A DNA stretch of 64,000 nucleotides from an uncultured Verrucomicrobia subdivision 3 bacterium. Lineage in GTDB: Bacteria > Verrucomicrobiota > Verrucomicrobiia > Limisphaerales > UBA11358. The stretch is taken from contig CAINLR010000093.1 in NCBI GenBank assembly GCA_903850425.1, forward strand, positions 1 through 64,000, in the 5' to 3' direction. The first letter of the stretch is position 1. The number at the start of each line of letters is the position of its first letter. The position numbers and the translations under genes were made by a program. A model generated the notes under the pieces. It was not told the DNA's origin. It did not search any database and saw only the letters and a program-made list of their open reading frames with translations. Shown piece after piece: positions 46,747-50,244 of this stretch.

Positions 46747-47985
46747 ATGGAACGACTGCCCGGTTTTCGCGATTTTTATCCTGAACCGCTCCCGCATACC
46801 GATGTGTGGAGCGCGGACGTGCGCCAGTTCATTTTTGAACAATGGCGCACGGTCGCTAAGCGCTATGGCTTCCGCGAATATGACGGCCCGCCGCTGGAAC
46901 CGCTGGAATTGTTCACGACCAAAAGCGGCGAGGAGATCGTCGGCCAGCTCTATAACTTCAAGGACAAGGGCGACCGCGAAATCGCCCTGCGCCCGGAAAT
47001 GACGCCCACGCTGGCGCGCATGGTCGCCGCCCACGAACGCAATTACAAGAAGCCAATCAAGTGGTTCGCCATCCCGCAATTGTTCCGCTACGAACGGCAG
47101 CAGAAAGGCCGCCTGCGCGAACATTTTCAATTCAATGCCGACCTCATCGGCGAGACGGATCCCGCGGCGGACGCGGAATTGATCGCGTTGTTGATTGATA
47201 CCTTGCGTGTGTTTGGCCTGACGTCCGAGGATTTTGTCATCCGCTTGAGCAGCCGCAATGCGTGGCAGGATTTTTTCAAGCATGGTGGCGGCGACTGCGC
47301 GCATGAATATGAGTTTTTCCAGATCATCGACAAGCTGGAGCGCAATTCGCCGGAAGAATCCGAAAAGAAATTAACCGCGCTCGGTTTTTCGCTGGAGAAG
47401 GTTAATGCGTTTATCGAATCCGGCACGCCGACGGTGGAATTGCAAAGCATTTTGACCAATCTCGCCGCGCGCGGCTTGAAAGACTTTGTAAAAATTGATT
47501 ACAAGGTGATCCGCGGACTGGCGTATTACACCGGCGTGGTCTTCGAGGCCTTTGATCGCAAGGGTGAATTCCGCGCTATTGCTGGCGGCGGTCGCTACAA
47601 TAATCTCGTCAAGCTCATCAGCGGCGGCAAAGTGGATCTCCCCGCGCTCGGCTTTGGCATGGGCGACGTGGTGCTGTCAGAATTGCTCAAGGCCCGCGGT
47701 CGCCTGCCGAAATTTGATTCGCCGATGGATGTGTTCGTCTTGATCGAGGACGAAACGTTGCGTGGAATTTCATTAAAGTTAGTTCACGACTTGCGCGCGG
47801 CTGGTTTTGCTGTGGATTATCCGCTCACGCCCACAAAAGCCGACAAACAATTCAAGCGGGCGCAGGATTTGAAAGTGGCCCACACCGCGCGGTTGGACAA
47901 TGACGCTTACGTTCGCATCCGCAATTTGAAAACGCGTGATGAAGTGGTCGCCGGCGTAGCCGACGCGGCGAATCATCTGGGCTGA
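46747..47985 (+). CDS. hisS: Histidine--tRNA ligase
   Basis: HisRS charges tRNA-His. The 412-aa product has class II motif 1 (RLPGFRDFYPEP start), motif 2 (FRYERQQKGRLREHFQFNADLIG), the histidine-specific GLAYYTGVVFEAF, and motif 3 (ALGFGMGDVVL). A C-terminal anticodon-binding domain follows (about 325-405). The start at 46747 gives the family beginning MERLPGFRDF; the frame is open 24 codons further up without similarity. A terminator follows at 48008. Confidence 0.96.
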   Translation: MERLPGFRDFYPEPLPHTDVWSADVRQFIFEQWRTVAKRYGFREYDGPPLEPLELFTTKSGEEIVGQLYNFKDKGDREIALRPEMTPTLARMVAAHERNYKKPIKWFAIPQLFRYERQQKGRLREHFQFNADLIGETDPAADAELIALLIDTLRVFGLTSEDFVIRLSSRNAWQDFFKHGGGDCAHEYEFFQIIDKLERNSPEESEKKLTALGFSLEKVNAFIESGTPTVELQSILTNLAARGLKDFVKIDYKVIRGLAYYTGVVFEAFDRKGEFRAIAGGGRYNNLVKLISGGKVDLPALGFGMGDVVLSELLKARGRLPKFDSPMDVFVLIEDETLRGISLKLVHDLRAAGFAVDYPLTPTKADKQFKRAQDLKVAHTARLDNDAYVRIRNLKTRDEVVAGVADAANHLG

Positions 47986-48150: not shown

Positions 48151-48199
48151 GTTGTGCATATCATTTCGTAGTCGAAATGAAGAATTGTGATAGTATGTT

Positions 48200-49077
48200 C
48201 TCAGTTCATTGAAAGAACGAAGCGGGCAGCGGAGAGTAAAATTGAAGTTGTTTCGTTTCAGGATAATCCCAGGCGACTGGGGAAAAGCCGGGTCAGGCTG
48301 GTTGACACGGCTCCTCCAAACCGCGCGGCAACGTGCGACGAGGCAGAATTCACCGGTTCCTCTGGCGGTGTTCGCACACCGTCAAATGCGAATGAGGGAC
48401 TTGGCGGCGAGGAATGATTAGAAACCATTCCCGACCGAGTCAAGTAGTCCGGACCGGTTTCGAGCCCGGATGAATCGCAGTCACCCAGAGGGTGTAAAGT
48501 TGCTACTGTGGATCAGCACGTTGCGGGCGACTCTGGCGGGTTCAAATTAAATTGGAACCGCCCAAAGAAAGACGCCGAAAGGCGGACAAAAGGAGCGCAC
48601 GCACCGGGAAGAACACGGGAACTCGGCAGGTTCCGTGAAAAACTTCCAAGCGTCGGCGATGTTAAAAACGACACCGCTGAACTGTGAAAGAAAAGCAACT
48701 TGAGAGACGAGAGGCGAGACCCGTGGCCATGGGCAAACGCGCTGTCAAAAGCAGCGGCCGACCCAGGGCTAATGGTTAAGACGCGAACGAAAAATTACAG
48801 GCGTGTCTTGACCTGGTTCGCAGGCCGGTGGCGCAACCACCAGCCGAAGCGAGCTGAAAAGCCTCACTCAAAAGTTCCGCGCGCTGCAAAGTGCCGGACG
48901 GCCCTGCTACGAGGCCGATAACTCCGCTTGCCGTGGAGAATGGCGTCGGGAAGCCGGCAGCCCCGCAAGGGCGCGCCTAATGCCGGTTCGGGAAAGAGAG
49001 CATGGCGAACTCCCATCCCCCATTTGTCCCGGTCTGACCGCAAGGTTAGGCCGGGACTTATTGTTTGTTGGGATGGG
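48200..49077 (+). ncRNA. Probable large structured RNA (~880 nt), class unknown
   Basis: No protein-coding frame in this stretch is convincing, but hairpins follow each other on the plus strand. Examples: TCCCAG-GCGA-CTGGGGA (48267), AGCCG...CGGCT (48287), CGGTG...CACCG (48365), GGAATG...CATTCC (48410), CACCC-AGA-GGGTG (48483), CGCC-GAAA-GGCG (48573), CACGGGAAC...GTTCCGTG (48614), GGTTAAGAC...GTCTTGACC (48774), GGTGG-CGCAA-CCACC (48826), CGGCC...GGCCG (48899), CCGGCA...TGCCGG (48953). A closing long helix follows: CCCATCCC...GGGATGGG (49012-49077) with GTCCCGG...CCGGGAC inside. Several loops are GNRA tetraloops and linkers are A-rich. I find none of the signature sequences of RNase P RNA, tmRNA or SRP RNA. 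A group II intron without ORF, or an unknown large RNA class, are the options. Ends are approximate. Confidence 0.5.
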
Positions 49078-49080
49078 GAA

Positions 49081-49176
49081 ACATTCAACATTGACCATTC
49101 AACCTCCAATTCAAAAAACCGGCGGCGACCAGCGGCGCGTTGGGCGTTCTGAGTTGAATGTTGAATGTTGAATGTT
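49081..49176. repeat. Full copy of the TTGAATG-type palindromic intergenic repeat
   Basis: The left arm (ACATTCAACATTGACCATTC and following, 49081-49115) is complementary to the right arm with three TTGAATG units (49151-49176). A GC-rich 35-bp centre (CCGGCGGCGACC...) separates them. Partial copies occur at 3185-3222 and 28678-28698. Confidence 0.8.
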
Positions 49177-49260: not shown

Positions 49261-50244
49261 ATGGGACGCATTTACAACAACATCATTGAAACGGTCGGTC
49301 ACACTCCGCTGGTCAAGCTGAACAAAGTCACGGCGGGCTTGGAGGCCACGATCCTGCTTAAGTGCGAGTTTTTTAATCCGCTCGGCAGCGTCAAGGATCG
49401 CATCGGCATGGCCATGATTGAAGACGCCGAAAAAAGCGGCGTGCTCAAAAAGGACACGGTCATCATTGAGCCAACCAGCGGCAATACGGGCATCGCGCTC
49501 GCATTCGTGGCGGCGGCGAAAGGCTACAAGATTATTTTGACGATGCCGGAAACAATGTCCCTCGAACGCCGCACGCTGTTGGCGATGCTGGGGGCGAAAC
49601 TCGTTCTGACGCCTGGCGCGGAAGGTATGAAAGGCGCGATTGCCCGCGCCGAAGCGCTCGCCAAAGAAACACCGAACTCCTGGATTCCGCAGCAGTTTGA
49701 AAACCCGGCGAATCCGGCCATCCACAAAAAAACCACTGCGGAGGAGATCTGGGCGGACACCGACGGCAAGGTGGATATTTTTATCGCCGCCGTTGGCACG
49801 GGTGGAACGCTTACCGGCGTCACCGAAGTGCTCAAGCCCCGCAAGGCGTCGTTTCAAGCGATCGCGGTGGAGCCGAAAGATTCGCCAGTGATTTCGCAGA
49901 CCCTCGCCGGCCAGCCGGTCAAGCCCGGTCCGCATAAAATTCAAGGCACGGGCGCGGGCTTTGTTCCCAAAAATTTGCACCTGAAAGATACGGCGGGGAA
50001 CGCCCAGATTCTGGAATGCGTTCAAGTGAGCAATGATGACGCCTTCGCCATGGCACGGCGTTTGGCCAAGGAAGAGGGGATTCTGGTTGGGATTTCCACG
50101 GGCGCGAATGTCGTTGCCGCCATCGAAGTGGCCCAACGCCCGGAAAACAAGGGAAAGCTCATTGTCACGGTGGCCTGCTCAACGGGTGAGCGTTATTTGA
50201 GCACCGCTCTGGCCGCCGAAGCCCGCGCGGAAGTGGGCGGCTGA
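49261..50244 (+). CDS. cysK: Cysteine synthase (O-acetylserine sulfhydrylase)
   Basis: The PLP enzyme makes L-cysteine from O-acetylserine and sulfide. The 327-aa sequence has the PLP lysine K45 in [11 protein letters not shown], the substrate loop [11 protein letters not shown], the phosphate-binding GTGGTLTG and the C-terminal [10 protein letters not shown]. Length is typical. It stands alone between the repeat at 49081-49176 and a terminator at 50269. It could also use other sulfur donors, as in CysM, but the overall sequence is closest to CysK. Confidence 0.95.

Follow-up and report, generated by a model that had tools for sequence, protein, structure and literature searches.

Our analysis points to a complete, independently transcribed gene for an RNA of the MISL family (Rfam RF03079) at 48169-49069 of the window, by which we mean the whole 64,000-nt stretch of Verrucomicrobiota DNA that was analyzed. 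We put the probability at roughly three in four that this segment is such a gene and that its RNA, of ~865 nt, is made by transcription of the Nus/boxA type. That the RNA itself is a plain member of MISL, a family already in Rfam, is near certain, and the 15-mer at the predicted start of the transcript very probably represents a boxA when judged by its sequence and recurrence. The parts of the gene are listed in Table 1.

Table 1. Predicted and matched features of the MISL gene (positions in the window).
Feature	Position	Strand	Basis
Promoter-like region	48169..48196	+	-35-like TAGTCG 48169-48174 (by eye), -10-like TAGTAT 48191-48196
boxA-like element GTTCATTGAAAGAAC	48204..48218	+	predicted transcript 5' end; recurs in 132/132 loci
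Hairpin P0	48219..48259	+	predicted from single-sequence folds; outside Rfam model
MISL RNA core	48261..49013	+	RF03079 positions 1-751, 595.1 bits vs gathering cut-off 274.6
Pseudoknot PK3	48372-48376 (TCGCA) with 48387-48391 (TGCGA)	+	526/539 cells canonical
Pseudoknot PK1	48498-48503 (AGTTGC) with 48695-48700 (GCAACT)	+	653/660 cells canonical
Pseudoknot PK2	48682-48687 (CTGTGA) with 48795-48800 (TTACAG)	+	621/641 cells canonical
CAYCCCC (variants)	49014..49020	+	between Rfam end and terminator; by eye from part of the flank listing
Intrinsic terminator	49026..49069	+	14-bp hairpin 49026-49057 plus T tract; covarying pairs 49027-49056 and 49031-49052

The gene lies in the gap between hisS, which ends at 47985, and cysK, which starts at 49261. 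The open reading frames of this gap are all short (the longest inside it encodes 135 aa, besides a 341-aa antisense shadow of cysK), and eight of them gave no Pfam match, in agreement with an earlier note on this DNA that had seen no credible protein here. That note had proposed a large structured RNA from the density of hairpins and had suggested searching the gap with the Rfam covariance models. The search returned a full-length match to the MISL model (E = 2e-181) with a score above the gathering cut-off, and 160 of the 170 model pairs are canonical in the window sequence. Six other Rfam matches between 46500 and 50500 all fell below their own cut-offs, and MISL is present once in the genome. 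The hairpin-rich texture is likewise backed by this match, by covariation and by the folding energy of the plus strand at 48204-49070 (-359.5 kcal/mol compared with -312.7 ± 6.5 for 20 dinucleotide shuffles, z = -7.2). The RNA was thus correctly recognized as large and structured, and the class that had been called unrecognized is MISL.

Several finer points of that note can also be addressed. It had seen no signature sequences of RNase P RNA or tmRNA, and separate copies of both were found in all 12 genomes tested, including this one, so MISL is not a disguised form of either. OLE, GOLLD and ROOL had been named as RNAs of similar texture and gave no Rfam matches up to E = 10 between 46500 and 50500. 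The block AAGCCGG..TGCCGGTTC, compared there with domain V of group II introns, is the MISL helix 48953-48987 and contains two covarying pairs. A closing helix placed at 49012-49077 (CCCATCCCC/GGGATGGGG) is present in the window but is not, as a whole, what recurs: the relatives listed share its 5' half (CAYCCCC and variants) and an intrinsic terminator inside it, at 49026-49057 plus the T tract. Since recurring parts exist outside the Rfam model, the limits given in the note (48185-49080) come closer to the predicted transcript than those of the Rfam match.

We compared the gene among relatives, as the note had also suggested. From 158 loci, we dropped 6 that were cut by ends and removed redundant ones, leaving 132. 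Covariation was evaluated in the 110 loci of normal length, the window's included, with 22 long variants left out. These sequences were aligned using MAFFT without structure, columns with at least 40% gaps were excluded, and column pairs were scored by a G-test with average-product correction against 20 null alignments in which the tree and the changes on each of its branches were preserved. Of 354,903 column pairs tested, 18 covaried at E < 0.05, where the E-values are rough because they rest on our own exponential tail fit, and all 18 were at least 85% canonical. Sixteen of these pairs belong to the Rfam MISL structure and the remaining two to the terminator stem.

Nested covariance models are unable to represent pseudoknots. 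Our search for further helices found three that are absent from the nested Rfam structure (PK1, PK2 and PK3). Both sides had changed in 47 cells of PK1, spread over all six pairs, in 87 cells of PK2 and in 72 cells of PK3. In controls where the partner was slid by 1-3 columns, the canonical share was 0.19-0.48 for PK1 (0-7 doubly changed cells), 0.22-0.42 for PK2 (7-30 cells) and 0.17-0.46 for PK3 (0-13 cells), and none of 300 column shuffles reached the observed canonical share of any of the three. Other measures were less informative: slid versions of PK2 also show some double change in 3-6 of its six pairs, and the count of pair-type changes on the tree does not discriminate for PK1 (32 compared with 34 in one slid control). 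No pair of PK1-PK3 was significant in the single-pair covariation test on the 110 sequences. Taken together, the alignments show a conserved multi-stem core with three supported pseudoknots. A further long-range helix, 48659-49003, was rejected: it had seemed promising for its variation, but in about 15% or more of the rows three of the five pairs are non-canonical, and it also overlaps MISL helices. A helix CCCGAC/GTCGGG that had been guessed by eye did not hold in the alignment.

The same comparison shows a gene anatomy that extends beyond the Rfam model, with a boxA-like element, a predicted hairpin P0 and a terminator that recur, and a -10-like box in most loci. In the window, the -10-like box stands 7 nt ahead of the element. 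The pattern [TC]A...T at -17 to -11 from the element was found in 41/45, 51/54 and 14/31 loci of three types (130 of the 132 loci examined), the last being the T-type loci; its frequency in control windows was 0.17-0.22. Folding gave P0 at least five long-range closing pairs in 128 of 131 leaders, with a mean z of -3.2 relative to mononucleotide shuffles. RNAalifold returned no consensus for P0 on 116 aligned leaders, so it is the single-sequence folds that support this hairpin. A terminator-like hairpin follows in 126/132 loci, at a median of 10 nt past the Rfam end. From the element to the terminator, the predicted transcript would be ~865 nt in the window and has a median of 864 nt across loci, where we infer the start site from sequence.

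The element carries the main argument for the mode of transcription. BoxA is the site on nascent rRNA that is bound by NusB and NusE (S10), and it is described in two sources as necessary and sufficient for formation of the antitermination complex (PMC5725501, PMC10250234). The 15-mer consensus GTTCNTTGANAGAAC, derived from the same 132 loci in which it was counted, is matched in at least 10 of its 13 fixed letters in all 132 and in at least 11 in 131; shuffled flanks reach 11 of the 13 letters in 0.27% of cases. NusB-family genes were present in 12 of the 12 genomes tested. Independently, the best 11-mer shared by 22 16S leaders of MISL-bearing genomes, found with no reference to MISL, was GCTCTTTGAAA. 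When the 132 regions of ~1.1 kb were scanned with a matrix built from these 16S leaders only (one site, L186, is a wrong pick and was omitted for the percentile tests), the MISL 15-mer was the top hit in 128 and the second hit in the other 4. The near-palindromic nature of the element left the reverse-strand control for this matrix unclean. Compared with 3,758 windows of flanking DNA on both strands, 126 of the 132 MISL leaders scored at or above the 99th percentile and six below it.

When 23 genomes were set side by side, 22 had enough 16S leader for comparison, and the boxA word at -127 to -227 from the 16S gene carried 8/8 fixed letters in 20 of them and 7/8 in two, with the genome of the window included. 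In that genome, the 16S leader reads GCTCTTTGAAA and the MISL leader GTTCATTGAAA. Both leaders of the relative G031 contain the CATTG form, and in G377 the words are GATCTTTCACA for 16S and GATCTTTGACA for MISL. Two genomes (G213, locus L248; G388, locus L249) each contain two diverged full-length MISL genes, both with a boxA-like element. The exact 15-mer is nearly specific to MISL. Among 40 genomes, 34 of them with detected MISL, it was found 36 times, in 31 genomes, and 32 of these copies lie 56-61 nt ahead of a MISL start. Three others lie elsewhere in G057, and one is near a contig end in G037, where the MISL contig begins too late to include its own 15-mer. The six genomes without detected MISL had none, reversed-pattern controls gave none in the 40 genomes, and the genome of the window has a single copy, at MISL.

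The leaders of RNase P RNA and tmRNA were intended as the negative control for boxA. RNase P leaders behaved as intended (1/12 above the 95th percentile). The tmRNA leaders did not, with 6/11 above the 95th percentile and three of these reaching the 99th, and the flanking-DNA windows were therefore taken as the control instead. The exact word GTTCTTTGA was found in five of these first 11 tmRNA leaders, all from family f28; the MISL leaders of this family belong to the type found in contigs titled Opitutaceae. We then examined 30 further genomes, of which four had no tmRNA found; among the other 26, the word was present in 15/15 tmRNA leaders of f28, 1/2 of f34 and 0/9 of the window's order. 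One of the 15 f28 genomes has no detected MISL. The word thus lies 40-104 nt upstream of tmRNA in 20/20 f28 genomes tested (L278, L282-L285, L294, L297-L310), and its background is 0.0005 per 300 nt of flanking DNA. By this measure, the tmRNA of f28 also seems to carry a boxA-like leader.

The MISL element departs from the rRNA form in some respects. Base 5 is T in 20 of 21 16S sites; among the 132 MISL loci it is C in 54, A in 46, T in 31 and G in one, so 101 deviate. A conserved GAAC is added; it is missing from the 16S leaders compared and makes the element near-palindromic, so that the element could serve another role. By eye, a hairpin directly ahead of the element in several lineages recalls the boxB-boxA order of rrn leaders, and six of the seven lineages noted in this way passed a hairpin test (L060, L062, L092, L099, L103 and L129, but not L166). 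Across all loci, boxB-like hairpins ahead of the element were not enriched (29/132 compared with 22% in shuffles); because they are no more common than in shuffles, we claim no boxB.

It is unlikely that the 15-mer is instead a short 5' hairpin, with a GTTC/GAAC stem shielding the RNA end, or a part of the MISL fold. Such a role would account for the conservation of GAAC, and the near-palindrome does fold into a 4-bp hairpin in the window, but the palindrome is not maintained: the stem differs in 25 rows, a pair is broken in 22 of these, and no cell is compensated. Some lineages start with GATC or GCTC, which brings the word nearer to boxA and breaks the stem, and the 15-mer matches the 16S boxA independently. 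The same loss of symmetry bears on the idea that the element acts as a DNA operator, at which a repressor or activator would control the MISL promoter. We consider this idea, for which the position of a near-palindrome immediately 3' of the -10-like box might speak, very improbable, since its core is also the word best shared among the 16S leaders and recurs in the f28 tmRNA leaders.

Other alternatives concern the RNA as a whole. A role in cis, with MISL as leader or attenuator of the gene that follows (cysK in the window), is as improbable as an operator or slightly more so. The frequent position of cysK as the next gene on the same strand within the order (counts below) would suit it, but a terminator separates MISL from the downstream gene, and in f28 that place is taken by typA in half of the loci and by cysK in none. 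A degenerate group II intron lacking an open reading frame, offered by the earlier note on the strength of GNRA loops and many hairpins, is practically untenable: it is refuted by the full-length MISL match, no group II covariance model, by which a domain V/VI would be recognized, matched up to E = 10 between 46500 and 50500, and MISL has its own terminator, one full place in this genome and recurring neighbors within the order. Transcription of a complete MISL gene from a boxA-like start remains the reading that we prefer.

Of 59 relatives, 39 had a MISL match (38 above the cut-off), as did 31 of 387 genomes drawn from the whole phylum (28 above the cut-off), leaving 20 and 356 genomes, respectively, without a detected copy under strict filters and with some genomes incomplete in the phylum sample. 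None was found in the 14 control genomes of either search. As many relatives are without detected MISL, it is not universally needed. In seven single-contig genomes (G157, G076, G149, G332, G180, G329 and G377), MISL lies on a contig of 4-6 Mb and is thus chromosomal. A pattern for the conserved 3' end found at least 119 stretches in GTDB genomes; a profile HMM matched all 119 listed and reached the model's 5' end in 99, whereas the other 20 were cut by the stored stretch or started further in. Among the matches listed, 80 titles comprised 77 Verrucomicrobiota (Limisphaerales, Pedosphaera, Opitutaceae, Puniceicoccaceae, Akkermansiaceae and others), one Proteobacteria and two given only as "bacterium"; we take the last three as bin labels. 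A phage origin was rejected, as the pattern, which recognizes 54 of 59 known MISL loci, had no matches in IMG/VR. Contigs that start or stop inside MISL were seen in G005 (C49, C101), G013 (C27, C33), G020 (C136) and G028 (C90). Three short matches considered as deletion variants (G005:C101, G013:C27 and G020:C136) end a few bases from contig ends and are therefore assembly breaks.

Six neighboring genes were traced, with domains assigned by Pfam and the names cysK, typA, folC and DEAH read from the domains. Among 30 relatives of the order, cysK was downstream in 18, hisS upstream in six and an M23 peptidase upstream in nine. Family f28 (20 loci) had a DEAH-type helicase upstream in 14, typA downstream in 10 and cysK in none; in nine loci of other families only folC recurred, in two. 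None of the six genes was within the stretch examined in 42 of 99 named loci. The sampled loci show no constant gene neighbor among those tested, and usually one copy per genome. The lack of a constant partner favors a free trans-acting RNA over a leader.

Judged from these sequence comparisons, the polymerase that transcribes MISL is most likely Nus-modified and Rho-resistant, as it is for rRNA. The RNA would start at the boxA-like element or within a few bases of it, and NusB-S10 would bind the element as it leaves RNA polymerase and recruit an antitermination complex of the rRNA type. A polymerase modified in this way could withstand Rho on a long untranslated RNA and aid its folding, and transcription would stop at the intrinsic terminator, releasing what may be a stable trans-acting RNA or the core of an RNP.

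This arrangement has parallels in known systems. In rRNA leaders with boxA (Nus antitermination, rrnTAC), as in MISL of the same genomes, a boxA word of a common kind follows soon after a promoter-like box and precedes a long untranslated structured RNA; MISL differs in its variable base 5, its extra GAAC and the lack of enrichment of boxB-like hairpins, and its Nus dependence is our proposal. CRISPR transcripts are repeat arrays that are cut into crRNAs. Their leaders also place a boxA on a long untranslated RNA other than rRNA (Stringer et al., 2020, as cited in PMC7862264), and in synthetic CRISPR arrays boxA is described as raising transcripts about tenfold (PMC7862264); unlike these, MISL is one structured RNA. 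GOLLD, ROOL and OLE are, like MISL, large and ornate bacterial RNAs whose function is poorly understood, and GOLLD and ROOL are described as encoded in phages and prophages (PMC12286853), whereas MISL has no Rfam match to them and is absent from IMG/VR by the pattern search. Relative to RF03079 itself, the gene matches in full length with the same covarying helices and adds the boxA-like element, P0, CAYCCCC, the terminator and three pseudoknots beyond the nested model.

In the open-licence literature, within the part of the long result lists that was viewed, we found no function for MISL, no mention of it beyond its appearance as a probing example in Ribonanza (PMC10925082), and no link of boxA to MISL or tmRNA. 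The authors of PMC5725501 state that their boxA survey did not take in non-coding RNAs. We did not find the gene anatomy of MISL, or a boxA-like element that it has in common with the rRNA leaders of these genomes, described in this literature. A boxA-like start hints at how cells make long untranslated RNAs. If the element works, it would account for the escape of an 865-nt untranslated RNA from Rho, it would add to the targets of Nus antitermination, which so far comprise rRNA, some mRNAs and CRISPR arrays, and through NusB pull-down and boxA mutants it would open experimental access to a large RNA that previously had none. The chances are about even that the rRNA antitermination machinery of Verrucomicrobiota serves structured non-coding RNAs generally, namely MISL wherever it is found and tmRNA in a single family. 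In that case, loading at boxA would be a dedicated way to make and fold long RNAs outside the ribosome, and MISL output would be coupled to rRNA synthesis and growth rate.

Two minor observations concern repeats. Just past MISL, 49073-49119 of the window has matches of 30-42 nt to three other contigs of the same genome (L002-L004) and is a small dispersed repeat. In G057, three copies of GTTCTTTGATAGAAC (L261, L262 and L263) stand in a shared context, with TTTGTAACCTATGGAAGGGTGGACT... ahead, and are not MISL. The repeat itself had no Rfam match, and these copies are possibly another boxA-led RNA or the end of a mobile element.
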